Shown here: positions 1,674 to 61,330 of the stretch, piece after piece
Layout of the letters: the number at the start of each line of letters is the position of its first letter
How positions within the stretch are numbered: position 1 is the first letter of the stretch
From: Halichondria panicea
Lineage: Eukaryota; Porifera; Demospongiae; Suberitida; Halichondriidae
Assembly: GCF_963675165.1 (NCBI RefSeq)
Contig: NC_087384.1
Span: 4,457,182 to 4,521,181, forward strand
Length of the DNA: 64,000 nt
Reading direction: 5' to 3'
Notes under the pieces: generated by a model
What the model was told of the DNA's origin: nothing
Seen by the model: the letters and a program-made list of their open reading frames with translations, nothing else
The model's database searches: none
Program-made: the position numbers and the translations under genes

Positions 1674-2015
1674 CCGTGTATATGCAAGGGTCATCATGAG
1701 ATTCTACAACCAGTTTCCAAACAACTATACAACATTACTGTGTATATGCAAGGGTCATCATGAGATTCAGTTTCCAAACAACTATACAACATTACTGTAT
1801 ATATGCAAGGGTCATCAATCTCATCATGAGATTCTACAACCAGTTTCCAATTGTGTATATGCAAGGGTCATCATGAGATTCTACAACCAGTTTCCAAACA
1901 ACTATACAACATTACTGTGTATATGCAAGGGTCATCACATGAGATTCTACAACCAGTTTCCAACCGTGTATATGCAAGGGTCATCATTGAGGTTCTACAA
2001 CCATGCAGTTTCCAA
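1674..2015. repeat. Short tandem repeat array, about 60-bp unit
   Basis: Six imperfect copies of a unit containing 'tatatgcaagggtcatca' followed by 'gattctacaaccagtttcc' begin near 1675, 1739, 1796, 1854, 1917 and 1965. Copies differ by internal deletions. The array keeps partial frames open, but the encoded peptide is only the translated repeat and is not taken as a gene. The last copy contains an extra 'atgc' inside 'aaccagtttcc', one of the 4-bp length differences listed in the findings. Confidence 0.85.
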
Positions 2016-20009: not shown

Positions 20010-20569
20010 CTTCAAACTTGACACTAGAATGTTTCACACATCAACTAACACACTATAATTATTGCATGACTGAACTATATAGGGTTTTCTATATTTGGTG
20101 CATTTTGTAACAACTGCTGCTGAAACAAACACCAGTGGCACTAAATTCAAAAACTATGAATGTGTGAACACAAACACTGAAACCTAACCAAACTGTTGTT
20201 GGTTACAAATGGTTAGGCCTTGATAAATTATGCTTTTTTTTCACCCATTCAAATCTTGAAAAATGTGCCTATTAGCTATCTCCATCATAAAAAATTTTCC
20301 TGCGCATAATAATTATAAGATCTAGATGTAGACATAAACACAGCACACAACTGACACAAGACATTATTAATATTATTATCATGATTCTCAGTGTTATAAC
20401 TATTGCTGACTTGAACTACCGTAAGCGTTCTAATTATAGAACCAGCCTCGGTTAGGACGCCCTATTTTATAACACCCATATGCTATCATACTATTTTTTT
20501 CATACATTGTTTCTAGAAAAATAATTATTTTACTGGTTCTTTAATTAGAATGATTACGGTATTCCATAA

Positions 20570-22196: not shown

Positions 22197-23340
22197 CCCG
22201 GTTTAAGGTACCACCAGTGTCGGTGGTGCAGGCCAAAGGTGTGGACGCAGTCTTAAGTGTCTGTATCTTGGTGCTGTTAACCACAGTTGGGGAATCAATG
22301 GAACCTTTCCAGCAGAAGGCAAGCACCCACCTGATGTTACCCGTACCCAAGCGTCTGATAATACCCCAGCAACAGCACATTACAACAACACTGTGGTGCT
22401 GTGTAGAGTTGTTGAAATGGAAGGAGGGCTCGGGCTCCAGTATGTGGACTTACTGAGACGCAGTACACTTTTACATATCCCAACCACAATCGGTATAATG
22501 GCACATTTTTTTCCACTGTGACTCCTGTTGAAGGAGGGAATCAAATGAAAGGAACAGCTAGTGAACCAGTTGCTGGATCATTTACATCAGCCAGAGCTAG
22601 GTGGCTAGTGTACTTATACTGATCATGGTTCTTTGTGGTTTATAAGTGCTTCTCTACGGGTGTAAGAACAGTTGTCAGCCAAGGAGAAGACTCAGATAAA
22701 AAATGTGTGATGTTTGAAGCAATGGTAATAATCACTATAATTATTGTATATCAATGGTCTAGTTGTTATTTTTTCAGGTCCCTGAATGTACACTGTTTAC
22801 TTTGTATCGAGTGGAATTTGGATCACTACTAGTAGGATTCTAAGAGTGGTGCTCTTAACGCATCTGGAAATGTTTCAATCACCTTCTCACTTCCTACTGA
22901 CATTCTAACAAATATCTCTGTGCTGCTAATGGAATTGACCTGATGTTTGAGAGTTTATTAAGTGAGTAAATCTCTGTTTCACTTTACACGGAGTCATATA
23001 ATACTCTTCAGGTACTAGTGATATTCAAAGACTTCTACCTGAGACTATAATTGTTCCGAAAGCATCAGTATGTGTGGCCATATTGAATATGCTGTGGATT
23101 CTTTTTCTCTTGGGGCTCTTAATGTATTTAGTTCCCATCACAAGTTATCATGCACAAGTGAGTCCAGCAGCATTATGTTGGCTGTGCCAAGGAGTACGGG
23201 TGATAGTTTCAGTATCAGTCACATACCTCCTGGAAGATACAGTCTCCTTGCTTTTGACCTGGAGAACAACCGTCTGCCAAGAATGCCACTCTCTCTAGCA
23301 TCTACAAGTGAAATACTGGAAGTGAGTACGTCACGAGGTA
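22197..23340 (+). pseudogene. A copy 1, ectodomain exons (Ig/FN3-type receptor), broken
   Basis: Exons homologous to those of B, but disabled. The Ig exon starts at 22,197 after 'ctttag'. A 1-bp loss near 22,250 shifts its frame, 18 bp near 22,370 are missing, and a deletion fuses the middle of the Ig exon to the late FN3 exon ('gggctcgggctccag', about 22,430). The exon starting about 22,779 (GTCCCTGAATG) runs into TAA at 22,840-22,842, a stop shared with A' and A''. The next exon (about 23,011-23,336) has 'ataattg' in place of 'gattg'. The signal-peptide exon is not found upstream. Homology to A' begins near 22,090. Confidence 0.75.
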
Positions 23341-24193
23341 AGTGTGTAATGGTGCGATGTGTAGCAATTAACACTGTGAGTACTAGCTGCATGTGCATGT
23401 ATACCCATTGGTATAGAACTCCGGCCCGTTAGAAAGAGCCATACAATTGACAAATGCTGAACATCAATTTTTTTACTACACAGCATACATGTATATGGCT
23501 CATTACACAAACATACAAGTGTATGTAAGGCTCACACACAAACATACGTATATATGTATAGTCATGTAATAATAATAAGAGGAACTGCACTGCTCTTGTT
23601 AGGCCGTAACATGTAACATCTGTTGGCTATTGTCATGTAGGATCATAGTGATAGTTTATGCTGCACGTCATATGTTTTTGTGTATGTGTATATGTACGTG
23701 GCTAACAGTCGACCATTGTACATGCATGTGTGCATCTCTAGGAACTGCTGCTCCCCTGCCCAATAGTGTAGGAATCACTGCCGTTAAGTTAATCAATGGA
23801 GATGTTGAAGTGTACTGCTCTATATACCTGTAACGAACTGCTTGGTGTTGGTTCATTCAATCAACTCGCCAGAACAATTATAATTATGTCCGGCTCATCA
23901 ACTCTACTGATGAAAGAAAAACTGTCTTCTCTGTTGATCTCATTGGTATAATGCCACAGCCTTTGTAGCAGTGCTCACTTGGGAGAAAATGACTCTATAT
24001 TTGACAGTCAATTATCCCTCATCACCCAACTAGAAACATATCCTAACCGGAAACATCGGTTAGGTTGTTTCAGTCAGATTATTTGTTACGATGTAGGAGT
24101 AGTATTATAGTTGTTGACAATGCCTTGATAAGATTGTTAATTAGCCTAGTTTATTCAAAACAATTATTCATCTTAAAATATTCCCACCTGCAG

Positions 24194-27309: not shown

Positions 27310-27900
27310 CTTCAGTAATTATGCCTCGGTGCGCATGCATGCGCAAGCGAGGTATACGGTAGTGTGTTTGTGTGTGTGTATATCAGTCTGTCTGTCTGTC
27401 TGTCTGTCTGTGTATAGACTGCTACAGCTGCTCAAGGATCAATGAAGAGTTTCTATAGGCTTCCAGTAACGTTTTCTTAATTGGATTTTAATTCGTGGAT
27501 TTGCAAAATAATGCTTCGTTCTCGAGTTATACCTACTTTTGGTTATTTGGAATGCTATTGCAGCCTTTTTAGAAGAGTGCGTAGCAAAACTTGTCCATGG
27601 AATGTTGCTACTGTACTTAGTAGTTAGCTCTGCACTAGAATGCTAGCTATTGGTAGCTGCAAGAGTGAGAAGAGAGCTGGACTTTTGTCATCAATCGTTT
27701 TTTAACAACAATCATGGTCGATCATTACCCACTCGTTGAGTTTCTCTGTGATTCTCATGCAGCAAAATAAATATTCATAAAAATGTTCATCATCATAATT
27801 GTAATCATGGTGTGTCTCCTGCAATGCGCAGTAAATGTGGGTGTGGCTTCCTTAAACGGGGAATGACCAATATTTTCCACGCTGCCTGAGGCACCCTCCT
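27310..27900. mobile_element. Repeat-like insert with GTCT microsatellite in A intron
   Basis: Begins with an inverted 'cctcggtgcgcatgcatgcg' / 'cgcaagcgagg' pair, followed by (gt)n and (gtct)n tracts. The whole block between the death-domain exon and the last exon is missing from A', where the exon-26,640 equivalent is followed after a short stretch by 'tgcctgagcaccctcctact', also found at 27,886. Probably a transposon or SINE-like element. The superfamily is not determined. Confidence 0.4.
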
Positions 27901-28060: not shown

Positions 28061-28634
28061 ACAATCTGTCATCTTGATTGTAATCAAATTTTTAACTTCC
28101 CCTCACTGGATGCAATAGCCCCTGTAAACCGTGTATTTTTTCTAGCTATAATATTATTGTTTCATAATCTTACTCATTTGTGTGAATTTGCATTGCTTTC
28201 TTGTTTGTCTGATGCATTTTATATAGAGAAGCTTATACCTTAATGTTACTATTATAAACTGACGGGTACTAATTTTAGCAAGTTATGTCTGAGGAAATAA
28301 TGAAACCAGGAGTGCACCCCTGATAAAACGCATTAAAATATAATTATAAAAAAAATTTTTCCGATGATATAAATGTACTTTTTAGAGTATGCTAGAAGCA
28401 AGCTAGCCCAATCTATATATTTCTGACTCAAACTTCAATCAACATTCAATCTAAAGAAACCATAGAAATACCAATTTATTAATTTTATAATAATAATATA
28501 TACATCTTGGCATAGTTATTGATTTGCTGCAAATCCCCCAAAATTATAGTATACCCTAAAAACTGAAAACGCTAAAATTACTATACCTGGGTATATGTAC
28601 TACAATACATGTATAATATAAAATTATCCACTGT
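28061..28634. other. Intergenic between A and B
   Basis: Homologous to about 53,330-53,900 in the second unit. AT-rich, no open frame recognised. Confidence 0.4.
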
Positions 28635-28722
28635 CAGGGTTTCATCTATAGGATTAAAATTGGGGGGGGGGGAGGGGGGAAGATTCACCCCAGCCCCTCC
28701 CCCCCCGTAAATGAAACCCTGA
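28635..28722. mobile_element. 88-bp MITE with G/C tracts, empty site in copy 2
   Basis: Ends 'cagggtttcat' and inverted 'cagggtttcat' around a G-run and a C-run that can pair. It is flanked by CTGT on both sides. In the second unit the site reads 'cccactgtacaataata' without insertion (about 53,904-53,920), so the element arrived after the A-B unit was duplicated. Confidence 0.75.
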
Positions 28723-28856
28723 CTGTACAATAATAGTGTTGAAACTTAAATTGGTGTGAAATCCTTATAGTGAATCTGACTCACTCATTAAATCCACCAG
28801 GGCCTATTTTCAACTTCACTCACTCCCTTTCACCGTTTCCCCCATAGCCTCCTTCT

Positions 28857-31672: not shown

Positions 31673-34600
31673 ATGAAAGCTGTGTGTGTACCATTTGTAC
31701 TACTATTGATGTTCCATCTCAGTCAAGGTTTGCATACCGTATTAATGATCGCCTTAAATCGTAATATCATTGTAGCTTGTGCATGTGTGCATGTTCGTCC
31801 GTTAATATAATACGTATGATATTAATTTACATAGGAGTCTATTGTTCTTTAATACTGCTATACATATACGTATACACCTAATACAATTGCCAATACCCTG
31901 CTAGTTACTTGTGGTGTTCTTCAACACTTAATCAATCAACCAACGTTAACCTTCACATTATTGTACCGTATATCGGGTTTCGAATGCGAAGTTCTTTCGA
32001 TTGTGAATTATAAGTTTCGCATAGATAGCAAACGAAAGATGCGCAGGAGCATGCGCATGCTATTCACCAAAGTTAGAAACACAATAGGATTTGTACAGTA
32101 TCATTTGCAAATGATAAACTATACGCATTCAAAACTCGATATACGGTATTTTCTTTCAATTCTTCAGCCCAGTTTACAGTACAACCAGTGTCGGTGGTGC
32201 AGGCTGAAGGTGTGGACGCAGTGTTTGAGTGTCTGTATCCTGATGCTGTAACCCACAGTTGGGGAATCAATGGAACCTTTCCAGCAGATGATAAGTTCCC
32301 ATCTGATTTTACTCGTACCCCACCGTCTGGTGATACCCCAGCAACACTGACCATCCCAGCTACAGCACATTACAACAACACTGTGGTGCAGTGTGAGGTA
32401 GTGGTTAGAGTGGAAGGAGGGTTCGATGGTATACGGACAGAGAATGCTACCTTGACAATATTTGGTAAGTCCCTCATACATGTATACGTCTACATACTCA
32501 TGCCACTCACTATATCGTAATCTGTTACTACAGCCATTACTGTTAATGCAAGTAATGATACGGATACAATCATTTTGTCATGGGCGGACCTCAACTTTAC
32601 TACCAACCTTACGTACTGTGTGAACTTCAACAAAACGACAATTGTCTGCAATAAGACACTTCCTCCAGTGTGTGGACTGACTGAAACGCAGTACACTTTC
32701 AAGTATCCCAACCACAGTTTGTATGACACTTTTTTTTTCACGGTGACTCCTGTTGATGGAGGGAATCAGATGAAAGGAACAGCTAGTGAACCAGTTGCTG
32801 GATCATTTACATCAGCCAGAGGTGACCAGTGTACTTACTGATCATGGTTCTTTGTGGTTTATAAATGCTTCTCTACAGGTGTAACAACAGTTGTCAGCCA
32901 AGGAGAAGACTCCGAGGAAAAATATGTGATGTTTGAAGCAATGGTAATATCACTATTATTGTATATCAATGGTCTAATTATTATTTTTTCAGGTCCCTGA
33001 ATGTACACTGTTTACTTTGTATCGAGTGGAATTTGGATCACTAGTAGGATCTCAGAATGGTACTCTTAACGCATCTGGAAATGTTTCGATCACCTTCTCA
33101 CTTCCTACTGACATTCTAACAAGTATCTCTGTGACACTCACTGCTGCTAATGGAATTGACCTGATGTTTGAGAGTTCATTAAGTGAGTAAATCTCTGTTT
33201 CACTTTACATGGAGTCATAATACTCTTCAGGTACTAGTGATATTCAAAGACTTCTACCTGAGACTGATTGTTTCGAAAGCATCAGTATGTGTGGCCGTAT
33301 TGAATATGCTGTGGATTCTGTTTCTCCTGGGGCTCTAATGTATTTAGTTCCCACCACAAGTGAGTCCAGCAGCATTATGTTGGCTGTGCCAAGGAGGGGT
33401 GATAATTTCAGTATCGGCCACATACCTCCTGGAAGATACAGTCTCCTTGCTTTTGACTTGGAGAACAACAGTCTACCAAGAATGCCATTCTCTCTAGCGT
33501 CTACAAGTGAGATTGTGGAAGTGAGGACATCAAGAGGTAAGTGTGTAATGGTGCGCATGTATAATTACAGGGATTTGCTGAGTTCTTGCAACTGCAACAT
33601 CGAGAGCAGAACTACCTGTCACGTGAACAGTTATGTAATTCTGGCTCATTCCAAACCAATTTTTCTCCAATAAAGCCTTTAGGCCATTTATTTTAGGAAA
33701 AAATCGAACTATACAGGAGGCTTTGTTCTGCATTGCAAGCCTTTGCACCACAGCTCAAAGCTATCCTTGAGCATTTCCAATCGTTTTGTGAGCTACTATT
33801 AGTCTGTCACACAACCTGTGTCACAGACCTGTGTATCCAGCTGGTAAGACAGATTTTACTGAGACTAGTGATACACTTTCAACAGCTTGCAGGCAGGCTG
33901 GGGCAAGTAGTAGCTTGCAAAACGATTAGAATCTCAAGGATAGCTTCAGCTGACAAGGTCTTTCCTATGTAAGTCGATGTTTTCCCAGTTTAACAAAAAT
34001 AAACGGCTCTATTGGAGAAAAATTGGTTTTGGAATGAGCCACAATTCAATCTTGTTACATAACGGTTCACGTGACAGGTACTTCCGCTCTCGACATTGAG
34101 TTGCAAGAATTCTTCAAATCCCTGTAAACACTGTGAGTACTAACTGCATGTGCATGTAGCCAATGGTAGAACGCCTGCCCGTTAGTGAGAGAAGGAGTTC
34201 ATTGGTGAGAGCCATAGACAATGCTGAACAACAAATGTTTGTGTACAGTGTATATGTATGGCTCATACACTAACATACGTAGTATATACAGTCATGTACA
34301 GTGTATATAATAATTTATAAGAGGAATGCACTGCATGCTCTTGTTAGGCCCTAACTTGTAACTGTTGTCATGTAGGCTTAACGCCATGCGTGTGTGGCTA
34401 ACAAGCAAATGTTTTTGTGTATGTGGGTGCATCACTAACAGTTGACAGTTGTTATTGTACATGTGTGCATTTCTAGGAACTGCTGCTCCCCTGCCCAATG
34501 GTGTAGGGAACATTACCTTTAAGTTACTCAGTGGAGATGTTGAAGTGAACTGCTCTATACCTGTAACGAACTGCTTGGTGTTGGTTCATCCAATCAACTC

Positions 34601-36375
34601 TCCAGAACAATTATCTGTCCAGCTCATCAACTTTACTGATGACAGAACTATTGTCTTCTCGGTTGATTTTATTGGTAATGTCACAGTAGCAGTGCTCACT
34701 TGGGGGGAAAATAACTCTATATTTGACGGTCAGTTGTCCCTCATCACCCAACTGGAAATATATACCGGTAAGAAGATTAGTTACATGTGTTTTAGTCAGT
34801 CTGCATGGGTTGTATGTATCACTTTAAGCATGCGCAAATAATTATGATGATGGACAGTGGACTCTAAATGCTGCCAACTTGTGAACATGCGCAAGTTATT
34901 TGCAGCATCAAGTAATTAATTCATTTTTGTTATTGTAGCCACCTGTTGTCAGTAGATGTTTACTCAGGTACTAAACTGAAACTGCATTGTTATTATACAT
35001 TAATTTTGTAATTTTCACAGAATTCCTAGCTGTGATCACTTATTAGCAAAACACCCACTCTCTTCCATCCAGCCATACAAGTGGTGATCAGCCCCAGTGG
35101 TGGTCCAATGGCTGGTCAGAGTTTCTCCCTCACTTGTTCCCTGAGTGGAAGGGCCTCTCTACAATCCACCCTCTCCTACCAGTGGACGAGGGAGGGAGGG
35201 TCACTCATTACCAGCACAGCAACCCTCAACTTCGACACTCTCTACTTGTCAGACGCTGGTCAGTACAGCTGTCAGGTCATCCTCACCTCCAGTCAGCTTG
35301 AGGGGGAACACACTGTAGCTGCTCACTACACCATTGAGTTCATGAGTAAGTGCCACTATGTCTAGACATTATGATTTATCCATTTAGTAAAATCATTTAT
35401 GGACTGTGCGTAGCTAGTGCTCAATGGATCATGCTGCTGTTGTGACCGTCAATTTGTTTTATAGCACTCAACATTCAACTCCGTCTGGATGTAATAACAA
35501 ACTGTGAGGTGTATATTGAGTCAGAGACAATGGCCAAAGCCAGTGGCATCACTAACAGACTATCTCAAGGTGTTGAAGGATTGTGTGCTTGTGGGTTCAG
35601 CCCCTCCCTTCTCACTGACGAGTTCATCAATTGTTTTGACGGCTCCTCTAGTCATGTGACCTACAGAGCTGTGCTGACTGGAACAGAAACTGTGTCTGCT
35701 GTGGAACTCATTTCTTTAATTGAACAATGGATCAGCGACACTTCAAGCATCATAGTACAAAGTACCCGACTTGGTTTGACAAACACTTGCCCTGTGGTGA
35801 TCACTGACAGAGACAGTCTAGAGTGCCCTGAGGATATCACTAATCTGACAACTGCTACTACCTCACCCACAGAGAGTGTAGTGGTCAATGTTGGTGCAGT
35901 GGCTGGTTGGGTGGTTGCTGGAGTCTTGGCCATTGCTGTGCTAGTACTGATCATATTGCTTGTCCTGGTTATGTTGAGGCAATGGAGGTCTGGATCCAAG
36001 GACATGAGTGATGAGAAGACAGGCAGCCAACCAACACAGTGAGTGTTAGTTGTGTGAATGAAGTAGCTGTACATACATACTTAGGTATATTTGGTTGTAG
36101 AGAGCTCCTTTGTAATAAATTACCTAATTTTGTGCATTAATAATTATACGATAATTAATTCTTCTATTTCGTACAGACTAGCCCCAGTGGTGATGAGTCA
36201 TCTCCCCTCCCCTGATTACGAGGGGTTGAGCGAACTACAAGAGGAGGCTACCTATGAGGTGGTGGACCAGCCACGCCCCCCTCCTCCTGCAGACTACCAG
36301 CTCTCAGCCTGTGCAGCTTATGCATCCACTGACTGCAACACAGAAAACAGTAGACACTATAACAACACAGTCTAG
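31673..36375 (+). CDS. B: Ig/FN3 single-pass receptor with paired-tyrosine tail
   Basis: Ten exons: 31673-31727, 32168-32464, 32534-32821, 32879-32943, 32993-33182, 33231-33536, 34477-34767, 35073-35345, 35465-36038, 36177-36375. They sum to 2538 bp (845 aa) with matching phases and GT-AG sites. Exon 1 is a signal peptide (MKAVCVPFVLLLMFHLSQ). Exon 2 is an Ig domain (FECLY..HSWGING..NNTVVQC). Exon 3 is FN3-like (IILSWADLNF) and exons 4-5 form a second one. Exons 6-7 are Cys-containing modules I cannot name. Exon 8 is a clear Ig domain (SLTCSL..YQW..LYLSDAGQYSC). Exon 9 holds a SEA-like juxtamembrane domain and a membrane helix (GWVVAGVLAIAVLVLIILLV). Exon 10 is a tail with YEGL, eight residues, YEVV, then PRPPPP. 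It is expected at the plasma membrane as an adhesion or recognition receptor (inference). Confidence 0.85.
31964..32148. mobile_element. taccgtata MITE in intron 1 of B
   Basis: Left 'taccgtatatcgggtttcg' and right 'gcattcaaaactcgatata' then cggta. It lies about 20 bp before the Ig exon. B' has the same element at about 55,349-55,541, and the right end (tctgatatacggta) survives at the same place in A, A' and A''. The insertion therefore predates the split of the A and B genes. Confidence 0.75.
33568..34124. mobile_element. Foldback element in intron 6 of B, TA duplication
   Basis: 557 bp, ends 'cagggatttg' and inverted 'cagggattt', flanked by TA. Long arms pair over most of the element: 'gcagaactacctgtcacgtg' faces 'cacgtgacaggtacttccgc', and 'aagctatccttgag' faces 'ctcaaggatagctt'. 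Also present in B' (56,974-57,518) and absent from the A genes, where the intron reads 'gcaattaacactgtgagt'. The insertion therefore came after the A/B split and before the B/B' split. Confidence 0.8.
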
Positions 36376-36626: not shown

Positions 36627-37876
36627 ATGGCTACTGTAACTCTATTTCTTTGTTGTCTGCTGGGAAGTGTTTCTCTTGTGCATGTATGGACAACCTTTGA
36701 GTGAGTTGATATGCAGTGCAACTAGTTATAGTGCATGTAGTCTAATTAATGAGCTAAACTATCTCAATCTTTTGTAATATTGATCTAGTAGACCTAGATG
36801 AAACAAATATTTATCAATTATTGTATTAATGGCATACAGTTCGACTAGCATCACCAACTGAGCCCCCTGACACTGACCACACTGGAGATGTCATCTCGTT
36901 CTCTGATGTTGGATCTAGAGCATGCAGGAACTGGTACTAATCCACGAGCCTGGTATTGCTACACCTTAGACCCTGGTGGTGTAGTGTGGCAGGGTCCTGA
37001 TGGGACTAACGTGCCCATAGGCGTCCCGAACAATCCCAACACAGCCGCAGTTGATGACGAACTGATCCTAACTGGTGTTTCTGGAGTTGCCATTGCTCTG
37101 CATCGTGGTCCCACACACTTCAGTTCTGATGGAGAACACTGCTGTAGGAGGTTTAGCACAGGACTGAGTAGATGTGTCACCTTCAGTGAGTGCTGACTAT
37201 ATTGTCTATGTCCAATACTAACCCCCCACATGCAGCTCCCTGCCCCACACTGAGTCCCCTGTCTAATGGAATGATCTCATACGACCCTGGTACTGACATG
37301 GCCACAGCCACCTACATCTGTGACACTGGGCACACTCTGACTGGTACCATCTCATCCATTACCTGTAATAAGGCCACAAGGCAGTGGAGTAGCACTGAGA
37401 GATTCACTTGTGAACGTAAGAAACATTTGCTATAATATTCACATTCACTGACCTCCTTGCATACAGTGATTTGTCCAGACCTCATGCACCATCCCAGCCA
37501 ATGGAGCACCACTTGTGTACAGTGACACCACCATCCCCAGAGATGATGGCTCCATGGCCTGTGACACTGGCTACCAGGTTACTGGACTGATGATGAGGAC
37601 GTGTAGTGTCAGTGGATGGAGCACTGGAGATGACCCTGTCTGTACTGGTGAGGGGGATGTGTTGTTGAACTGATATCAAGAGTTCCCCCACAGCTATCTG
37701 TCCTGTCCTCACCCTCTCCAATGGATTCATCGTCTACGATCCAAACTCATCCCCCGTACTAGAGGGAGCCATGGCTACACACGCCTGTGTCACTGGATAC
37801 CAACTGTCCTTATCTCCAGCTACTAGGATCTGTCAGTCTGACAGAATGTGGAGTGGAGATGACATCACTTGTGAAC
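36627..37876 (+). pseudogene. C: sushi-domain protein gene, disabled by 4-bp insertions
   Basis: Starts 250 bp after B. The first exon encodes a leader (MATVTLFLCCLLGSVSLVHV). Exon 36,840-37,185 encodes a module with VVWQGPDGTNVP and SRCVTFS, but an extra CATG at about 36,921-36,926 shifts its frame into a stop (NWY*). Three sushi (CCP) exons follow: 37,236-37,415 (CPTLSPLSNGMISYD..GHTLTG..CE), 37,467-37,647 (with another extra 4 bp after GACCTC and a 9-bp loss) and 37,694-37,876 (CPVLTLSNGFIVYD..ITCE). Sushi repeats usually mediate protein binding on secreted or surface proteins. Homology to C' stops at about 37,893, where the 9.4-kb insert begins, so any further exons are lost. Confidence 0.75.
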
Positions 37877-40217: not shown

Positions 40218-43200
40218 TTACTTTGTCACAGATGTCACTACTTTGTAGTGGTCACCCGTGTGATAAATATACAAACCCTTTTTGTCCCGAGGAGGGGGGA
40301 TGTTGGGGTCTATTTTGCTCGGACAGTGACACAGCCAGGCATTTCCAGCCGTTCTCGAGTAGACGAACACCCTTCGCTCGAGCAGATGGGCCAGTGCAAA
40401 GATCTCCAAGTGAGTTCCCCAGGTACGTGTTTGGTCCATTTGCGTGCCCCTGACGTAGGAGATCATGTCCGGGTAACCTGCATCGATCAACCAATGTTTA
40501 CCATTAAACAAATGTTGAAATCACACGTGCTTTACAATGGCTCGCCTGACAGTAATGTGTTGACGTTGATAGCCGGAAATGACCACAGACATTGCCCTGA
40601 ACATGCACCCCATCATGTCAACGAGCGAGGGTAAATGGGGCCGAGTCAGGGCAATGTTTGGTCCGCCGGCGGTGACGATATTTCTGTGGTGATTAATTTT
40701 CAGCAGCAAACACGCCGATTTCTGTTCAACCTCGTCCAGAGGGTTGAAGCAGAACGATTCACCGTGATTGCTACCACGATTCTCTGGGTCTTCAACTATA
40801 TGGCAATCACCAGCAGAGGTGACTGCCTCGTTTAGTTTCTTAACTGGGGGTTTGTTAACATTGCTGGGGACTTTCCTTTCAAGGTTACATTGCCGTTTGG
40901 CTGGCGGGAAGACTGCAGGCGTCCTTTCCTTTCATTTCTTAACTGGGGGTTTGTCGACATTACTCCCTTCAACCGTACACTGCCGTTTGGCTGGCGGGAC
41001 AATCGCAGCTGTCATTTTCCTTTTTCTGTTTTGTTTAACGGGCAATTCGTACGCTGCCAAGTCTGGCCTGAATGCTAGCCTGAGCCTGTTACACTCCTCC
41101 ACACACGTTCTAGAGGCCATGATGGAGTCGGGTGTAAAGGACGTCAGGTGTACACCGTCTATGGACCTGACTCTGGACAACGCCACGTACGCCATGCCCT
41201 CACCAAACACGCTGTCAGATAGGTCGATGATGGCACAGTCGAGCGAGAGACCTTGGCTCTTGTGTATGGTGACGGCATAAGCGACTATTAGAGGGAACTG
41301 GTTCCTGGAAATGTAGAATTTTTTCAGGACACAGAACCGGTTAGCAACTCTGGTCACTTTGTACGGTTCTGCCACACGGTCGAACTTAACAGTCACGTGT
41401 TTAGATTCTATTTCAAGAACGGTGCCTACGGCTCCGTTTACTAGACCGTCTTCGGTGGATAGGTTTCGTCTCAACATGACGCGGGCATTAACGGCCAGGT
41501 GGAGCACTTCTTCCAGACCAGCCGTCAAGCTGCTGTCTTTGTTCATTTCTGTCAGACGCTTTTCGGCCTGTTTGTTCCACTCTCCGTTGGCGCAGGCACC
41601 CTCGTCGATGACGTCTCTACAACGCAGTGGTATTATCTTACTGTCTAGAGTGTTTAAAAGATCAGAGTTAACTGTTGCACACGCTTTTCTAGTCGAGAAA
41701 AGGCATATGGGTTTTTTACCCTCGCGTTTCAGTTGCTCGTACTTTTCTAGTACGGGCACATTGAAGACGCGTTCTGTCAGGAGAGAGACTGCCTGTTCGC
41801 TAGGAAATCCCCTCCTGACGCCGTCGAGTATTTCAGTGTACAATTTGTCCCCTTTTTGTCTTTCGTTAATGGTAAGCTCGTCGTACACTACTGTGCTTTT
41901 CCAAATGTTTGCGGACCCTATGCAACCTATTCTGAGCGATAGCACTTTAGTGGGAACGCTTTGGAACATCGGTGCACCGTTAACGGGTGGTAGCTGGAGG
42001 ATGTCGCCCACAAAGAGCATTGTTTTACCCCCAAACCATTCGGCCCCCCCGTAGATCTCGTCAAGTCTCAAATGTATGTACGTTAGATTGAGACTTGACA
42101 CCATGGACACCTCGTCAATTATGAACACCTTTACGTTCATTAGTTGTTGCCTGAGGTATTTTAGCGTTTGTTTGGGCAGTTCCCAGTATGATGCAGTTTT
42201 ACTGTCGTGCTCTATCGGCAACTGAAAGAGCTGGTAGGTGGTAACACCGTTTACATTACAAGCTGCTAGGCCCGTGGGGGCGGCTACTGCACTTGAATTG
42301 GGTAAATCCGGCCACGTGGCTTTGACAAACGCTCTAAGCGCCTGAATGAGGAAGGACTTGCCCGTTCCCCCCACACCACTAACAAACATTTGCAATGGTT
42401 TGATGTCTGTGCATTTACAGTCTCCTTTTTCATGGTCTAATTCGTGCAACAAATGCCCAGTGATTTTTTTGTACACACGGCTTTGGTCGTCGTTTAGCAT
42501 GGACAGTCTCCTGTCCAGCGTTATGGGGTCTACGTCGAGGTCTAGCTCGAGATGGCGATCCAAGTGTGATTTGGCCATGCCCTGGAGCAGGAGGTTGACG
42601 TCGTCTTCCTCCTCCTCCACCTCTCTTTTCTGACGTTTCGACCTTCTGGCGTTTGAGATATCCCGCGATCTCTTATTGACGTCCAACATCTTCTGGAGCT
42701 TGTCGTGGTGAGCGAGGAGGCCTTCGTTCTGCCTCCTCTCGAACGGCGACTCTCCGTCGAGGAGGAGGTCACCCTCGTCAACGAACGGGACAAAGAGCAG
42801 AATGAGGCAGTAGTAGTACTCTTGCTCCTGTTCTTTTCTGTTGGTGGGTGTGACTGATAACGCGAGGTTTGACGAGCCTCCTGTACGTTTTCTCACCCTG
42901 GCGGTCCCTAGCGTACCAGTCAATGTGTGCGACAAAGTCGTGCAGGCACATGGAGGACAGTCTGTCTGGCCTGTTTGGATAGTGAACGTCTATCAGGCTA
43001 GGGGCGTACATGTCAGTGCTTTTCGGGTTCATTTTTAAGAGCTGAGCGTAGTTTTTGAGCTTTCTATTGCGTTTGTACGGTAGCAAAGCATTCACGTAGT
43101 GAACATCGTTTGATTTCTCATGAAAGTGGTCACCTGTAACACCCCTCGTGCTGCCCTACTTCTCGGGTTTTAAAGGCTATTAAAGCAAACTTCCACTAGA

Positions 43201-45059
43201 GAGTAGTGCCCGTGCTAGACAGGCTAGACAGTTCCGCAAACGTGTCTTGCATGGCGCTTTTCTCTGCTTTTGTGACGTACGCCGTAATGTAACCGGTGAG
43301 CGCCATGCTGGTCTCGGCTATGTACTGGACGTCAACGTTAGCTTTCCAAAGGTGCAGCAGCAAGGGATTGTAATCGTTGATTCTGGCTTCTTGGCCTTTT
43401 CTGGGAAGATCGTACACTCTCTGCCTAGCATTGGTTTTTTCCATGGCGTTTAAAGTGGCCGTGGCCGTCGCTATTCTGGGAAAGTTGAATCTACACCTTT
43501 TAATGTACTTTCCCTTACCCATGTGTCTAGGCCTAGAACAGTAGTTGTTGCACCGATGCATCTGATATTTCATGACCAAGGCGTACAGTTCCGGGTCAGT
43601 TTCTTTGTCTGGGATGTTACACGTGATTCTCTCCTGTATCCAGGCGAGAACCACGTGATCGGGGTCGACCCCCATCACGGGGGCTCCCTTTATCCAAAAC
43701 ATGACGTGGTAATGCGGTGCACCTCTGTTCTGAAACTCTTTTTTGATAAAAGAGCACACCACCTCGCCAAACAACTTGCCACGCATAATTACAATTTAGA
43801 ACATCGCGCGGAATTTGTGCGAGAACTGCTTGGACACCGAGGCGGGGTCTTCATTGCACATTTTAGAGATGTCTACTTTTGAGCCGGGATCGTAGTCGCC
43901 GAGTAGCTTAAGGAACTCCAAAATGTCTGGCGAGCTATATTCTGCACAGCTTAGCGTCATGAAAATGGTAGCTGGACCATTCTCCCTAACTAGAGCATTC
44001 AATTCACCGGCAGTTTTATGCCAGTACTGCTTGGTTCCACGCACACTACGCATGATTGTGGAGAGGTTTTCCTCTAGCTCGCCGTCTTTTTTTTTCTAGC
44101 TGTTTCAGCAGGTCTTTGACAGGGGAATGTCTGATCGTGGTGTTTTTAAGCACGTTGAAAATGCCCGCCTTGATCTTTCTCAAGAGTTTTTGGTGCGTGA
44201 GGTAGAACAGGTACTCGCTACTTTTTCTGTACCTAGAGTCTTTGTTGTTTAGACGCGACTTTACGTACTCGCTGAAACTCAGGTGCTCGTCGCGAGGGTG
44301 AAACTCGCCGAATCTACCTGTTGGGAAAAGGTTTGGGAAGCACATGACGTCTAAATGCTCCTGGCTACTTTTTAACGGATATTCGTCTACCTTGAGCATT
44401 TTAAACTGGTCTATGTCGGCAACGTTGGGTTTGAACGTGTCTAAACTACGTACCGTGTAAGCTTGTATGCCGGCCGCGTATCCCGACTTGTCGGTCACCT
44501 TTTCGAGCATGGTACTGGTTGCACTGTTTGCAACCTCTATGACTACGTCCTCCATGGACTGTTCTACTTTTCCCGGTTGCACGTCTACGTACAACCAGTT
44601 GATTTCTTTGAGTTTTGTCAAAGCTCCTTCGATTTTGTTTATGTCGACGAACTTCCACCAAAGAACGTTTTTCTTTGTGGGAACCCCGTCGACTTTAACG
44701 TACAGCTGCAGTTTAGGTAGTCCGCATTCGTTCAGAGCTAGCGTTTCAGCCGTGTTTGCCATGGGCAATGGCAGAATGAACATGTTACCGCGGCACGCTT
44801 TGAGACAATTGTACGAAGGAACTTTCTTCGAATACGGATGCAACCTGATGACAGTTTGAAACGTTTTCGCTAGTTGAATCAATTGCAAGCTAAAGGCGTC
44901 GAGCCACTTCAGCTCGTCTGGCAGGGGTGCCGTTTCTAGACCGTTCACTACGGCCCTAGGTGGAATCCGACTAGAAAAACATTTGCAATATGAAAAATTG
45001 CTAGGATTGGCCAGGGGGACCACAAAAAAGCGTGGAAACAAGAAATCCGACGAGAGCAT
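40218..45059 (-). mobile_element. Decayed Helitron: Rep-helicase-OTU polyprotein (Helentron-like)
   Basis: Reading down from the ATG at 45,057-45,059. An N-terminal region (45,059-44,090) of the type preceding Helitron Rep. Rep with the HUH motif (APHYHVMFW) at about 43,715 and the paired-tyrosine motif YITAYVTKAEK near 43,270. A PIF1-family helicase (42,935-40,935) with SGVGGTGKS, IIDEVSM, GDILQLPPV and TIHKSQGLSLD. An OTU-type cysteine protease region (GCMFRAMS at about 40,600; LYIYHTGDHYKVV near the end). Lesions: frameshift at an A-run (44,089-44,097), TAA 43,796, TAG 43,196, frame changes in 43,190-43,095 and near 42,890, TGA 40,932 and TGA 40,521. The last two lie in one frame, so helicase and OTU were one protein. 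A C-terminal OTU is the layout of Helentrons/Helitron2. Confidence 0.85.
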
Positions 45060-45509
45060 AACTCCAATCCGTTACGTCAATCACATGTACTGGTAGTTTT
45101 CCATGTTTTCCCGGCCAATATAATATAAATATGCAATTTTTACTGGTGGGTGATGACCAATCCTTTTATTATACATCCATTTTGGAATGTGCGGGCATAT
45201 AATTATGATGATTTGTGATGAATTGATGTTCCTAATACATGCAGTGTTGAACACAGGTACACACATGCAGTCCATCCATGCGTAGTAACATGCACGGACC
45301 GTACTGGTGACCTACATGGAATGATGTGGTGGATGGAAGCTGGTAGATGGATCTGGAACATAGTCTATATACTATGTATTGTACATGTTCATGACGTTGT
45401 AACGGATTGGAGTTATGCTCTCGTCGGATTTCTTGTTTCCACGCTTTTTTGTGGTTCCCCTGGCCAATCCTAGCAATTTTTCACATTGCAAATGTTTTTC
45501 TAGTCGGAT
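44965..45509. repeat. 115-bp inverted duplication of the Helitron head
   Basis: The arm 44,965-45,079 (including codons 1-31 of the Helitron polyprotein) recurs inverted at about 45,394-45,509, about 97% identical, with a spacer of about 310 bp. The plus-strand arm opens with the same peptide (MLSSDFLFPRFFVV), then leaves homology exactly where the element at 45,510 is inserted. It may be a second, head-to-head Helitron copy truncated by that insertion, or a snapback duplication. Confidence 0.8.
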
Positions 45510-47280: not shown

Positions 47281-49176
47281 CTACAGCTAGCTCATGTTTG
47301 GATCCTTCGCAGCCAGGTAGCTAGGTATGGTGCAACATTAAATTAGCCTTCTTACTTCTTTTCACATTCCTTTTATGCCATAATTATGGAGTGTTACCGC
47401 TGACTAAACACATAGTCAAATCTGATTGGCGTATTCTTTTGATCTCATGAATTGCGAAATGATTAGGTACAATTCACAATAGCAATAGGGTTTGTACAGT
47501 CTCAAATGATAACTACGCATTCAAAATCTGATATACGGTATCTTGTATTTTGTTTTGATTCTTTAGCCCAGTTTAAGGTACCACCAGTGTCGGTGGTGCA
47601 GGCCGAAGGTGTGGACGCAGTCTGTATCTTGGTGCTGTAAACCACAGTTGGGGAATCAATGGAACCTTTCCAGCAGAAGGCAAGTACCCAACTGACGTTA
47701 CTCGTACCCAAGCATCTGGTAATACCCCAGCAACACTGACCATCCCAGCCACAGCACATTACAACAATACTGTGGTGCTGTGTAGAGTTGAAGGAGGGCT
47801 CAGGCTGACCGAGAATGCTACCTTGACGATATTTGGTAAGTCCCTTGTGCATATACACCATGCCACTCACCATTATCTATGTTGTTATTTACAGCAATTT
47901 CTGCTAAAACAAGTATATAATGATACGGATATTATCATTTTGTCATGGGCTTACGTTTACTACCAACCTCACGTACTGTGTGAACTTCAACAAAATGACA
48001 ATTGTCTGCAATAAGACACTTCCTCCAGTGTGTGGACTTACAGAGACGCAGTACACTTTACATATCCCAACCACAATCGGTATGACAATTTTTTTTCACG
48101 GTGACTCCTGTTGATGGAGGGAATCAGATGAAAGGAACAGCTATAGTGAACCAGTTGCTGGATCATTTACATCAGCTAGAGGTGACTAGTGTACATGTAT
48201 ACTTATACTGATCATGGTTCTTGTTTTGTGGTTTATAAGTGCTTCTCTACAGGTGTAAGAACAGTTGTCAGCCAAGAAGAAGACTCAGATAAAAAATGTG
48301 TGATGTTTGAAGCAATGGTAATAATCACTATAATTATTGTATATCAATGGTCTAATTGTTATTTTTTCAGGTCCCTGAATGTACACTGTTTACTTTGTAT
48401 CGAGTGGAATTTGGATCACTACTAGTAGGATTCTAAGAGTGGTGCTCTTAACGCATCTGGAAATGTTTCAATCACCTTCTCACTTCCTACTGACATTCTA
48501 ACAAATATCTCTGTGCTGTGCTGCTAATGGAATTGACCTGATGTTTGAAAGTTTATTAAGTGAGTAAATCTCTGTTTCACTTTACACGGAGTCATATAAT
48601 ATTCTTCAGGTACTAGTGATATTCAAAGACTTCTACCTGAGACTGATTGTTCCGAAAGCATCAGTGTTTGTGCATGGTCGTATTGAATATGCTGTGGATT
48701 CTTTTTCTCTTGGGGCTCTAATGTATTTAGTTCCCATCACAAGTTATCATGCACAAGTGAGTCCAGCAGCATTATGTTGGCTGTGCCAAGGAGTACGGGT
48801 GATAGTTTCAGTATCAGTCACATACCTCCTGGAAGATACAGTCTCCTTGCTTTTGACCTGGAGAACAACCGTCTGCCAAGAATGCCACTCTCTCTAGCAT
48901 CTACAAGTGAAATACTGGAAGTGAGTACGTCACGAGGTAAGTGTGTAATGGTGCGATGTGTAGCAATTAACACTGTGAGTACTAGCTGCATATGCATGTA
49001 TACCCATTGGTAGAACTCCGGCCCGTTAGAAAGAGCCATACAATTGACAAATGCTGAACATCAATTTTTTTATACACAGCAAACATGTATAATATGGCTC
49101 ATTACACAAACATACGTATATGTATAGTCATGTAATAATAATAAGAGGAACTGCACTGCTCTTGTTAGGCCGTAAC

Positions 49177-52826: not shown

Positions 52827-54436
52827 GTCAGTGTCACGAGTTTTCCCCTTGTACATGTATGTATGTACGGAAAAATATATGGATAATTAGTTCTCTTGCA
52901 ACTTACAGTCCATTTGCCCAGTATCCAGACACAAGGTTCATTATAGCCGGCTAATGATTCCCTCACTCCCATAGCACCTGTATGTGATGGTCAAAGCAGA
53001 GCCAGGTGCCAACTCAGACGATCCCACGAGGGTCGTGTACGCTCAGGTGAACAAGAAGAAACAGAAGCTTGTCCGTCTTACTGGGTCAGCTGCAGCTGGT
53101 GAGCACTACTATATTTATGTTTACCTCGTTAGTCTTCAGAAAACCACATATGTCACGCTGCCTGAGCACCCTCCTACTGATATTCCTATAGAAAAGACAC
53201 CACTAGTTAGGCTATGCAGAGGGTTAATTCTCTCATTGTTCATACACAGGTATTGCAGAGCCAATCAGCATGCTTCTGTGGATTCTTGTGACCGTATTCA
53301 GCCCACTGCAAGTACATAGCCCTAGCTGAACAATTTGCATGTCATCATGATTGTAATCAAATTTTTCAACTTCCCCTCACTGGATGCAATAGTCCCTGTA
53401 AACCGTGTATTTTTTCCATAGCTATTGTTTCATAATTTTACTCGTTTGTGTGAATTTGCATTGCTTTCTTGTAAAATCAATAACGCTGATGCATTTTATA
53501 GGAATTAACGAGAAGATTTTTATGCTTATACTTTGTTACTATTATAAACAGGTACTAATTTAAAATTGTGTCCGCGCTAATAATAAAACCAGGAGTGCAC
53601 TCCTGATATAAGAGAGTATGCTAAGCAAGCTAGCCCTATCTATACATCTGACTCCAAAGTTTAATCGACATTCAAAGGGCAGATCATCAAAATCAAGCTG
53701 TTAGGACGCCTTACAACACACCTTCACTACAGCACTCATAATTTTATACATCTTTTGGCCAATAATTATTGTGCTAATAAATTTGCTGCAAATCCGCCAA
53801 AATTAGTACCCCCTAAAATTAAACTGAAAACGCTAAATTACTATACCCGTAATAGTAATCTTACTAAGTTAGGTATATGTACTATACAATTATACTATAT
53901 ATACCCACTGTACAATAATAACTAGTGTTGAAGCTTAAATTGGTGTGAAGTCCTTATAGTACACTCATTTAAATCCGCCAGGGCCTATTTTCAACTTCCC
54001 ACTCTCCCTCTCATCGTTCCCCCAACTTTTATAGCCTCCTTCTTTCACCCTCCCTCTTTCTCTCCCCCCCCCCACTCCTACCACCCTTATTTGTTCTCTC
54101 ATATAAGTGCATGCATTGCATGCCGTTATACATATAAAATTATATGCATTCTAAGTTTGACACAAACACTCTTTGAACTGAGTCTCCCTTCCCCCCCCCC
54201 CTCTCTCTCATCCATATATACTAGCATTTCCTTTCAGATTACATTTAAGAATATAATATTCATTCAACACGTCAAGATGTGCATGAATGAAGGTGTAAAC
54301 ATAATAAATTATAGATATATGGCCCACCAAAATAATTATTATAGTTAACCCTGACTTTTTTTAGGACACGTCAATTTGTCTATTCTAGTTACAAAAGTCA
54401 ATAAAAATTAATACTAATAATTAACTATTACATTGC

Positions 54437-55061: not shown

Positions 55062-58000
55062 ATGAAAGCTGTGTGTGTACCATTTGTACTACTATTGATG
55101 TTCCATCTCAGTCAAGGTTTGCATACCGTATTAATGATTGCCTTAAATCATAATATCATTGTAGCTTGTGCATATGTGTTCGTCCGTTAATACGTATGAT
55201 ATTTATAATTATGATATTAATTTATATAGGGGTCTATTGTTCTTTAATACTGCTATACACCTAATGCAATTGCCAATACCCTGCTAGTTACGTGTGGTGT
55301 TCTTCAACACTTATAATCAATCAACCAACGTTAACCTTCACATTATTGTACCGTATATCGGGTTTCGAATGTGAAGTTCTTTCAATTGTGAATTGTAAGT
55401 TTTCGCATAGATAACAAACGAACGACACGCACAGAGTGGATCATGCGCATGCTATTCGCCAAAGTTAGAAACACAATAGGATTTGTACAGTGTCATTTGC
55501 AAATGATAAACTATACGCATTCAAAACTCGATATACGGTATTTTCTTTAGATTTTTCAGCCCAGTTTACAGTACAACCAGTTTCGGTGGTGCAGGCCGAA
55601 GGCGTGGACGCAGTGTTTGAGTGTCTGTATCTTGGTGCTGTAAGCCACAGTTGGGGAATCAATGGAACCTTTCCAGCAGATAATGAGTTCCAACCTGATT
55701 TTACTCGTACCCAACCGTCTGGTGATACCCCAGCAACACTGACCATCCCAGCTACAGCACATTACAACAACACTGTGGTGCAGTGTAGAGCTGTTGTTGA
55801 AGTGGAAGGAGGGTTCGTTGGTAGACTGACCGAGAATACCACCTTGACAATATTTGGTAAGTCCCTCATATACATGTACGTCTACATACTCATGCCACTC
55901 ACACTATGCCATAATCTATTACTACAGCCATTACTGTTAATGCAAGTAATGATACGGATGTGATCATTTTGTCATGGGCGGACTTCAACTTTACCACTAA
56001 CCTCATGTACTGTGTGAACTTCAACAAAATAACAATTGTCTGCAATAAGACACTTCCTCCAGTGTGTGGACTTACTGAGACGCAGTACACTTTCAAGTAT
56101 CCCAACCACAGTGGGTATGACACTTTTTTTTTCACGGTGACTCCTGTTGATGGAGGGAATCAGATGAAAGGAACAGCTAGTGAACCAGTTGCTGGATCAT
56201 TTACATCAGCCAGAGGTGGCTAGTGTACCTACTAATCATGGTTCTTTACTGCTTCTCTATACAGGTACTGGTGTAAGAACAGTTGTCAGCCAAGGAGAAG
56301 ATTTAAATGAAAAACTTGTGATGTTTGAAGCAATGGTAATAATAATTATATAGATTCGATTTGTTGTCTAATTGCTATTTTTTCAGGTCCCTGGATGTAC
56401 ACGGTTTGTTTTGTATCGAGTGGAATTTGGATCATCACTAGTAGGATCTCAGAATGGTACTCTTAACGCATCTGGAAATGTTTCAATCACCTTCTCACTT
56501 CCTACTGACATTCTAACAAACATCTCTGTGACAATCACTGCTGCTAATGGAATTGACCTGATGTTTGAGAACAGTTTATTAAGTGAGTAAATCTCTGTTT
56601 CACATTACATGGAGTCATAATACTCTTCAGGTACTAGTGATATTCAAAGACTTCTACCTGAGACTGATTGTTCCGAAAGCATCAGTATGTGTGGCCGTAT
56701 TGAATATGCTGTGGATTCTTTTTCTCCTGGGGCTCTAATGTATTTAGTTCCTACCACAAGTGAGTCCAGCAGCATTATGTTGGCTGTGAGGAGGGGTGAT
56801 AATTTCAGTATCGGCCACATACCTCCTGGAATATACAGTCTCCTTGCTTTTGACTTGGAGAACAACAGTCTACCAAGAATGCCATTCTCTCTAGCGTCTA
56901 CAAGTGAGACTGTGGAAGTGAGGACGTCAAGAGGTAAGTGTGTAATGGTGCGCATGTATAATTATATCAGTTACAGGGATTTGCTGAGTTCTTGCAACTG
57001 CAATATCGAGAGCAGAACTACCTGTCACGTGAACAGTTATGTAATTCTGGCTCATTCCAAACCAAATAAAACCTTTAGGCCATTTATTTTGGGAAAAAAT
57101 CGAACTATACAGGAGGCTTTGTTCTGCATTGCAAGCCTTTGTACCACAGTTCAAAGCTATCCTTGAGCATTTCCAATCGTTTTGTGAGCTACTATTAGTC
57201 TGTCACACAACCTATGTCACAGACCTGTGTATCCAGCTGGTAAGACAGATTTACTGAGACTAGTGATACACTTTCAACAGCTTGCAGGCAGGCTGGGGCA
57301 AGTAGTAGCTTACAAAATGATTAGAATCTCAAGGATAGCTTCAGCTGACAAGGTCTTTCCTATGTAAGTCGATGTTTTCCCAGTTTAACAAAAATAAACG
57401 GCTCTATTGGAGAAAAATTGGTTTGGAATGAGCCACAATTCAATCTTGTTACATAACGGTTCACGTGACAGGTACTTCCGCTCTTGACATTGAGTTGCAA
57501 GAATTCTTCAAATCCCTGTAAACACTGTGAGTATACTAACTGCATTGTGCATGTAGCCAATGGTAGAACGCCTGCCCGTTAGTGATAGAAGGAGTTCATT
57601 GATGAGAGCCATAGACAATGCTGAACAACAAATGTTTGTGTACAGTGTATATGTATGGCTCATACACTAACATACGTAGTATATACAGTCACGTACAGTG
57701 TATATAATAATTTATAAGAGGAAATGCACTGCATGCTCTTGTTAGGCCCTAACTTGTAACTGTTGTCATGTAGGCTTAACACCATGCGTGTGTGGCTAAC
57801 AAGCATATGTTTTTGTGTATGTGGGTGCATCACTAACAGTTGACAGTTGTTATTGTACATGTGTGCATTTCTAGGAACTGCTGCTCCCGTGTCCGATAGT
57901 GTAAGGAACATTACCGTTAAGTTACTCAGTGGAGATGTTGAAGTGAACTGCTCTATACCTGTAACGAACTGCTTAGTGTTGGTTCATTCAATCAACTCTC

Positions 58001-59950: not shown

Positions 59951-61330
59951 ATGGCTACTGTAACTCTATTTCTTTGTTGTCTGCTGGGAAGTGTTTCTCT
60001 TGTGCATGTATGGACAACCTTTGAGTGAGTTGATATGCAGTGCAACTAGTTATAGTGCATGTATAATTAATGAGCTAAACTATATATCTCAATCTTTTGT
60101 TATAATGTATAATATTGATCTAGTAGATCTAGATGAAACAAGTATTTATCAATTATTGTATTAATGGCATACAGTTCGACTGGTATCACCAACTGAGCCC
60201 CCTGACACTGACCACACTGGAGATGTCATCTCGTTCTCTGATGTTGGATCTAGAGCAGGAACTGGTACTAATCCACGAGTCTGGTATTGCTACACCTTAG
60301 ACGCTGGTGGTGTAGTGTGGCAGGGTCCTGATGGGACTAACGTGCCCATAGGCGTCCCGAACAATCCCAACACAGCCGCAGTTGATGACGAACTGGTGTT
60401 TCTGGAGTTGCCGTTGCTCTGCATTGTGGTCCCACACACTTCAGTCCTGATGGAGAACACTGCTGTAGGAGGTTTAGCACAGGACTGAGTAGATGTGTCA
60501 CCTTCAGTGAGTGCTGACTATATTGTCTATGTCCAATACTAACCCCCACCCCCCACAGCTCCCTGCCCCACACTGAGTCCCCTGTCTAATGGAATGATCT
60601 CATACTACCCTGGTACCGACATGGCCACAGCCACCTACATCTGTGACACTGGGCACACTCTGACTGGTACCATCTCATCCATCACCTGTAATAAGGCCAC
60701 AAGGCAGTGGAGTAGCACTGAGAGATCCACTTGTGAACGTAAGAAACATTTGCTATAATGTTCACATTCACTGACCTCCTTGCATACAGTGATTTGTCCA
60801 GACCTCACCATCCCAGCACCACTTGTGTACAGTGACACCACCATCCCCAGAGATGATGGCTCCATGGCTACCTACACCTGTGACACTGGCTACCAGGTGA
60901 CTGGACTGATGATGAGGATGTGTAGTGTCAGTGGATGGAGCACTGGTGAGGGGGATGTGTTGTTGAACTGATATTAAGAGTTCCCCCACAGCTATCTGTC
61001 CTGTCCTCACCCTCTCCAATGGATTCATCGTCTACGATCCAAACTCATCCCCCGTACTAGAGGGAGCCATGGCTACACACGCCTGTGTCACTGGGTACCA
61101 ACTGTCCTTATCCCCGGCTACTAGGATCTGTCAGTCTGACAGAATGTGGAGTGGAGATGACATCACTTGTGAACGTATATGTACTCAGACTGACTTAATG
61201 GGTAACTAACTGCCAGTTATACATCTGTTTTAGTGATTTGCCCCAACCTTGGCGTACCAACCAATGGAGGAGTGACCTACAGTGACACCACCATCCCCAG
61301 AGCTATGGACTCCACTGCCACCTATCTGCA
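59951..61330 (+). pseudogene. C': sushi-domain gene, disabled by deletions
   Basis: Same leader exon as C (ATG 59,951). Exon 60,175-60,506 keeps the frame that C lost (GSRAGTGTNPRVWYCYTLD) but has a 10-bp deletion after GATGACGAACTG, so its end is out of frame. Sushi exons: 60,559-60,738, 60,790-60,945 (TIPAPLVYSDTTIPRDD..; 3' part with the last Cys deleted), 60,992-61,174 and a fourth, 61,234-61,330 (CPNLGVPTNGGVTYSDTTIP), which breaks off mid-domain. The lesions differ from those in C, so their common ancestor was intact in these exons. Confidence 0.75.

Follow-up and report, generated by a model that had tools for sequence, protein, structure and literature searches.

What kind of process leaves the duplicated segments of one genome differing, time and again, by exactly four bases, and by circular permutations of CATG in particular? 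The question is raised by a stretch of 64 kb (here called the window; contig C8, positions 4457182-4521181 of a eukaryotic assembly of 131 Mb in 39 contigs, possibly a sponge to judge by its genes), for which a preliminary description had reported a recurrent gain or loss of CATG or ATGC between duplicated copies. Our analysis reveals that the CATG insertion is one case of a broader rule, by which a short word W becomes W·rc(W)·W (rc, reverse complement), as in CA to CATGCA or AG to AGCTAG.

The relevant features of the window are the following, where C and C' are duplicated segments, square brackets enclose the extra bases, INS marks a site read as an insertion, and long and short refer to copies with and without the extra bases.

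2002..2005, + strand, CATG insertion with CA core in a tandem-repeat unit, CAAC[CATG]CAGTTT; INS, 1 long and 2 short
22595..22598, + strand, AGCT insertion with AG core, CCAG[AGCT]AGGTGG; INS, 1 long and 4 short
23881..23884, + strand, TAAT insertion of the class that turns ATAT into ATAATTAT; INS, 1 long and 3 short
27477..27480, + strand, TTAA insertion with TT core, TTTC[TTAA]TTGG; INS, 1 long and 4 short
31788..31791, + strand, TGCA insertion with TG core; INS, 1 long and 2 short
34802..34805, + strand, TGCA difference with TG core between C and C', AGTC[TGCA]TGGG; unpolarised
36679..36682, + strand, TGCA insertion with TG core, CTTG[TGCA]TGTATG; INS, 2 long and 2 short
36920..36923, + strand, GCAT insertion in copy C between AGAGC and AGG, giving AGAGCATGCAGG; C' is short at 60254/60255
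37190..37435, + strand, Sushi-repeat reading frame in copy C (PF00084, E 1.7e-7)
37230..37233, + strand, ATGC difference in copy C, CCAC[ATGC]AGCTCC in the alignment of the preliminary description; a change in C-run length adjoins
37485..37488, + strand, TGCA insertion in copy C, CCTCA[TGCA]CC; a separate 9-base difference adjoins
47914..47917, + strand, TATA insertion with TA core; INS, 2 long and 3 short
48671..48674, + strand, TGCA insertion with TG core; INS, 1 long and 4 short
53336..53339, + strand, TGCA insertion with TG core; INS, 1 long and 2 short
57730..57733, + strand, TGCA insertion with TGC core; INS, 1 long and 3 short
60759..60971, + strand, Sushi-repeat reading frame in C', spanning the short allele of the 37485 site (PF00084, E 5.1e-6)

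All 18 strings quoted in the preliminary description exist, 0-11 bases from the positions assigned to them, and of the nine pairs formed from them four are clean and two plausible. More specifically, local alignment gives a clean four-base gap of the CATG type for the pairs 36915/60250, 37478/60803 and 34331/23589 (the site at 57730 is the C' counterpart of the last), and the site at 2002 has a clean four-base gap against the neighbouring tandem units. The pairs 5927/2332 and 15284/5387 have their four-base gap in a gapped or weak alignment, the latter with a score of 39, where shuffled sequences reach at most 21. The other three are less secure: the gap at 37230 is not uniquely placed because a change in C-run length adjoins it, though the total length difference fits; that of 23718/50375 is split 2+2 and ambiguous; and 54577/29973, for which local alignment gives no four-base gap, is not supported. 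As to the frame shift that had been proposed for copy C, this copy has +4 differences from C' at 36920 (one long copy, one short and four other, hence without a polarity call) and at 37485, with differing reading frames on the two sides. The Sushi frame of copy C lies between the second and third of the sites described there.

A tandem array related to the Sushi-repeat segment of the window, with copies about 1.19 kb apart, is found on contig C4 (741001-751000). The minus strand of the window carries Helitron-like reading frames at 40932-45071, with a PIF1 helicase match (PF05970, E 1.5e-22), a weak match to Helitron_like_N and DUF6570. It also carries four tandem copies of a hydrophobic protein of 560-600 amino acids (2841-4643, 8636-10339, 13414-15096 and 18351-20033), and the one copy of the four that was scanned, 8636-10339, had no Pfam match. 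An Rfam search of the 64-kb window gave no match.

We have collected indels of at most 30 bp between paralogous stretches paired by BLAST, with duplicates removed, in 324 kb of contig C8, 27 kb of contig C4 and a 3-kb locus of contig C12, all in one assembly; the genome-wide evidence consists of word counts. Alignments had an identity of at least 75% over at least 80 columns, and each event at most three mismatches in the 10 bases on either side, without a further gap. Merging calls of the same length at most 14 bases apart reduced 871 clusters to 834 indels, most of which come from gene-family clusters on a single contig. The sites described at 37226 and 37478 (37485) are missing from this table because gaps adjoin them; the 34802 site, present in an earlier event list, is missing from the final table as well.

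The distribution of lengths among the 834 indels (185 of one base, 157 of two, 62 of three, 138 of four, 33 of five and 49 of six) shows that four-base indels are commoner than those of three or five bases. Among the 138 of four bases, 36 are rotations of CATG, for which the tetramer background is 0.024 (binomial p 1.5e-26); rotations of self-complementary tetramers number 86, with a background of 0.114 (p 4e-46). Both p values assume independent events, and paralogues are only partly independent. Within the surveyed parts of the three contigs, the recurrent CATG difference is therefore real and well beyond what chance would give.

The direction of the events was read from which state is private among the available copies, a reading that conversion between copies could mislead in single cases. 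On this basis the 86 self-complementary events comprise 44 insertions and 1 deletion, with 41 left uncalled, and the other 52 four-base events 23 insertions and 5 deletions, with 24 uncalled. Insertions are thus in surplus in both groups, more strongly so in the self-complementary one (Fisher p 0.028, residual relatedness ignored). Clear examples are GGAC[CATG]CACACATC, with one long copy against 21 short ones, and GAAC[TGCA]TGGAGAGG, with one against 18; two or more long copies were counted by eye in 11 of the 86 events (12 if the one deletion is included). The long state is the derived one wherever polarity could be called, so that the gain in the earlier 'gain or loss' stands and the loss comes down to that one deletion, next to the 41 uncalled events.

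The commonest class of four-base indel, 57 of the 138, has exactly two bases of overlap. Cores other than TA account for 35 of the 57 (22 of the 35 are CA or TG), and in 29 of these 35 the middle is the reverse complement of the core, the other six not fitting. By core the rule holds in 11 of 11 cases for CA, 10 of 11 for TG, 2 of 2 for AG, 2 of 3 for TT, 1 of 3 for AA, 1 of 1 for GA, and 1 of 2 for both TC and AC; with CA and TG set aside it therefore rests on 8 of 13 events. The unit is not specifically CATG, as had been supposed, since AG, TT, AA, GA, TC and AC cores obey the same rule in smaller numbers, and C[ATGC]A is what W·rc(W)·W yields for a CA core. A process confined to CATG was ruled out, other self-complementary classes behaving alike.

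TA sites fall outside CATG altogether. The middle of the 22 TA cores is AT in 12, TA in 7, and AC, CG and GC in one each, so that they yield TATA and, within ATAT, also TAATTA. TA is also the core in 43 of the 53 two-base indels with exactly two bases of overlap (20 insertions, 2 deletions, 21 uncalled). The preference for CAG noted earlier is visible in the base that follows CA, which is G in 12, C in 6 and A in 3 of 21 events, insertions and uncalled events pooled (p 0.017 against a G+C background of 0.619, T excluded, which after CA cannot score at exactly two bases of overlap). CAG is favoured but dispensable, as CAC, CAA and GCA cores are also seen. The short copies indeed lack ATGC at the site and have the dinucleotide core alone. 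Simple slippage was rightly judged inadequate, because the short allele holds one dinucleotide and no tandem unit; the overlap is below four bases in most of the 86 self-complementary events, with exactly two in the lead.

The words that such insertions leave behind are themselves in excess. Under a trinucleotide model the ratio of observed to expected numbers (O/E) in the 324 kb is 2.27 for W·rc(W)·W words and 2.27 for XX'YY'XX' words, whereas the remaining W·V·W words come to 1.10 and the remaining palindromic hexamers to 1.08. The excess is found in each of six 54-kb parts (1.88-2.70 across the two classes) and again on contig C4 (1.82 and 1.99). Genome-wide, CATGCAG occurs 67,841 times (34,061+33,780) and CAGTCAG, of the same base composition, 23,278 times (11,380+11,898). 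Period-4 palindromic words with GC or AT cores are equally in excess (GCATGC, O/E 3.58; ATGCAT, 1.94), yet GC and AT cores are absent from the 57 events whose overlap is exactly two bases. Nine-base words built from a three-base W reach an O/E of 4.16 against 1.46 for controls; these were not counted under the same rule and were set aside because a few words lead, namely TGTACATGT, TAATTATAA and TGCGCATGC.

Four sites in high-copy families, picked after the rule had been formed and all reported here, extend the comparison. Site (a), between CCTCGATCCCA and GGCC in a dispersed repeat, has 2,347 uninterrupted copies (1,173+1,174). The seven four-base inserts at this CAG site are TGCA (four times), GCTA (AG·CT·AG), GGAA and GGCA; five of the seven, at five loci, obey the rule, and GGAA and GGCA do not fit. 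A wider search, with 1-14 bases of any kind before GGCCG, gave 19 matches: TGCA four times, GCTA, TGCATGCA, GCTATA, GCTTA, ATGCA, GGGTA twice (11 kb apart), G, A, one insert of 9 and one of 14 bases, and four that merely extend to a second GGCCG. The four TGCA copies lie on contigs C3, C5, C8 and C12, and their flanks match at 17-22 of 60 positions on the right and 14-31 of 60 on the left. At site (d), CA.A, the inserts are TGCA twice (both on C12 and perhaps not independent), CA twice and ACA once; both four-base inserts obey the rule, and the two that turn CA into CACA are exceptions or slippage and speak against the pairing scheme set out below. Site (c), T.TA.G, gave TA twice and one further match that extends to a second motif. 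A dispersed element found at 49176-50257 of the window and elsewhere has TAGCCTCGATCCCAGGCC ends and, in comparisons of paralogues, flanking duplications of 9-11 bp; its word CCTCGATCCCAGGCC has 2,347 copies.

The conversion of ATAT to ATAATTAT is a related class of insertion, and the largest single one. ATAATTAT has 100,191 copies in the 131 Mb, about one per 1.3 kb (23881-23884 in the window is an example), and its reversed word 5,899, so that it is 17 times as frequent as this control. All 12 TAAT insertions are in the context A.TA.T. In the 324 kb, 158 of the 254 ATAATTAT words lack a sibling whose flanks are similar, and the class is therefore not explained by a single repeat family. At site (b), an ATAT in the TA|CCGTATAG family (GGGTATATTTCG), there are 377+380 uninterrupted copies and 52 with inserts of 1-10 bases; read by eye, these are TAAT 20, TTAT 1, TAGT 1, TA 14, TT 1, T 4, three bases 4, TAAGT 2, TAATAT 3 and longer 2. 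Contig C11 has ten of the 20 TAAT copies, including three pairs at a spacing of exactly 448 bp, and hence not all 20 are independent. The change from ATAT to ATAATTAT keeps the two-base duplication, as does the six-base form TAATATTA, but its AT middle is not the reverse complement of an end; it is the main unexplained part of the data and may represent a second route. A scheme in which a 4-bp target is duplicated and the junction bases are inverted was rejected, since it suits ATAT to ATAATTAT and fails for CA to CATGCA.

TA-flanked inverted-repeat elements are also present. A MITE family with ends CCGTATAGCG..CGCTATACGG is present at 28513-28738 of the window and in further copies on C8, and a related inner word, TATAGCGGGTATATTTCG, has 757 copies in the genome. 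TA|CAGGGATTTG.. elements with matching CA..TG ends are present on C8 as well. The word TACATGTA occurs 104 times in 264 kb, 7.8 times expectation, and 92 of its 124 copies in the 324 kb have no sibling of similar flanks. One scar site also holds a TA-flanked MITE (TA followed by CCGTATAG.., with alleles CACATGCTG, CACATGCATGCTG, CACATACTG and filled), which was first taken as direct proof of excision; it proves nothing, because the order of the alleles suggests that the scar came first and the +4 state plausibly predates the insertion.

The reading that we tentatively favour is that of a long-lived and recently active process inserting short self-complementary units, in which breaks with a stagger of two nucleotides are joined with the addition of P nucleotides. 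The strands of the double helix would be cut two nucleotides apart, and fill-in would place W on both ends. Before joining, one end or both would be extended by P nucleotides, the reverse complement of the bases in which that end terminates, as might arise when a hairpin-capped end opens off-centre. If W is not self-complementary, as with CA, the tails (TG on one end, CA on the other) could pair over two bases to give W·rc(W)·W, whereas for a self-complementary W such as TA or CG four bases could pair to give W·W. The longer pairing of self-complementary tails is proposed as the reason why CA gains four bases and TA two, and the share of TA in the two-base indels (43 of 53) is as this argument predicts. 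In 29 of the 35 non-TA events the bases gained match the end in reverse complement. In addition, three inserts at site (a), AG·CTT·AG, AG·CTAT·AG and CA·ATG·CA, look like P nucleotides accompanied by one or two extra bases. Two observations count against P nucleotides: in the ATAT class (12 TAATTA events) there is no such match to the end, and GCATGC-like words are in excess without matching events.

Among the possible break-makers are a transposase that caps the flanking ends or another agent with a two-base stagger. That the genome has been shaped by a germline process so far undescribed, in which an enzyme cuts with this stagger, chiefly at the dinucleotides CA, TG and TA, and the ends are rejoined after gaining the mirror of their own last bases, is unlikely though by no means far-fetched. 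Were it true, palindromic scars would number in the tens of thousands; they would make up much of the CATGCA excess and perhaps many of the 100,191 ATAATTAT words, and the process would rank among the main causes of short insertions and frameshifts.

A rather unlikely alternative is that Tc1/mariner-type elements or MITEs left excision footprints, with a 2-bp target duplication around 0-4 bases of the element ends. The W·M·W arrangement with its 2-bp duplication matches the footprints described in the available part of PMC4561436, and +4 is given as the typical (78%) somatic Tc1 footprint in the available part of PMC13148408. TA-flanked inverted-repeat elements do occur (for instance TA|CCGTATAGCG.. 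and TA|CAGGGATTTG..), and TA cores carry middles of no bases, AT or ATAT, with TACATGTA in excess. The ends of an element would be constant, yet the middle at non-TA cores tracks the target word (29 of 35). TACATA and TATGTA, the forms of the Tc1 +4 footprint, are not in excess (O/E 0.80 and 0.84), and among the inverted-repeat candidates listed no family with a CA or TG duplication stood out. The 228 candidates with a 2-bp duplication (among them TA 69, AT 42, GC 25, CG 16, CA 14 and TG 4) are a weak test of this, because outward extension of the repeats favours self-complementary dinucleotides. Excision could fit the TA class (middles AT 12, TA 7, others 3) and the ATAT class, the more so in view of the TA-flanked elements and the TACATGTA excess.

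Quite improbable is template switching or polymerase-theta joining, in which a 3' end, nascent or resected, would briefly copy two bases of the opposite strand and return. Short-range template switching writes inverted copies according to the available part of PMC7954356, and the excerpted text of PMC11292364 has polymerase theta starting stem-loop synthesis from two terminal base pairs; against this, the inverted copy here is of two bases and directly adjacent, in every case the return duplicates those two bases, and the spread of insert lengths to be expected is mostly lacking (62 three-base and 33 five-base indels against 138 of four). The reverse process, in which microhomology deletion (CA..CA) shortens words like CATGCA, is disfavoured to the point of being most improbable: all 28 CATG-class events of the earlier event list overlap by at least two bases, which speaks for it, but polarity gives 44 insertions against 1 deletion, the corresponding words are in excess rather than depleted, and few events fall at non-palindromic words with the same overlap. 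An artefact of assembly or base calling is hardly credible, for although the evidence comes from a single assembly, 11 of the 86 self-complementary events have the extra bases in paralogues that diverged later, and the word excess is found at tens of thousands of places. The earlier idea of a footprint-like or end-joining process was partly right, and it remains the best available class of explanation.

Whatever its agent, the mutational signature borne by this eukaryotic genome is sharply defined and can be predicted to the single base, and its effect on reading frames is illustrated by the two +4 differences between C and C' in the Sushi-repeat region. If a germline break-maker is responsible, these insertions would form a readable record of the positions of breaks and the mode of their joining, and they would account for an excess of words that motif searches could take for regulatory sites. 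Insertions of the form W·rc(W)·W did not come up in a limited search of the open-access full-text literature, which is weak evidence of novelty.

The comparison with known systems brings out both likenesses and differences. The scars of template-switch mutations, as far as the available sources describe them, share the local inverted copies, whereas here the copy is of two bases only, is adjacent and leads back to the same dinucleotide. Tc1/mariner footprints resemble our insertions in that a 2-bp duplication flanks a short middle, the usual result in somatic tissue of C. elegans being +4 in the available part of PMC13148408; they differ in that the targets here extend beyond TA (35 of 57 events have other cores) and the middle tracks the target word. 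For the hAT elements the likeness lies in the scar bases, which here too are inverted copies of flanking bases and not derived from an element. The target duplication of Ac/Ds is 8 bp, as against exactly two bases of overlap here (57 of 138), and Ac/Ds scars are variable, whereas the outcome here is near-uniform with no element tied to the sites. The palindromic footprints that Ac/Ds forms from flanking DNA have been read as evidence for hairpins in the available part of PMC4561436, and in V(D)J joining P elements derive from the opening of hairpins by Artemis, as stated in the accessible portion of PMC13041557. With V(D)J joining our insertions share the reverse complement of an end's last bases at the joint, sometimes with extra bases; they differ in having no recombination signals and no programmed locus, in being scattered genome-wide, and in that both ends bear the same dinucleotide.
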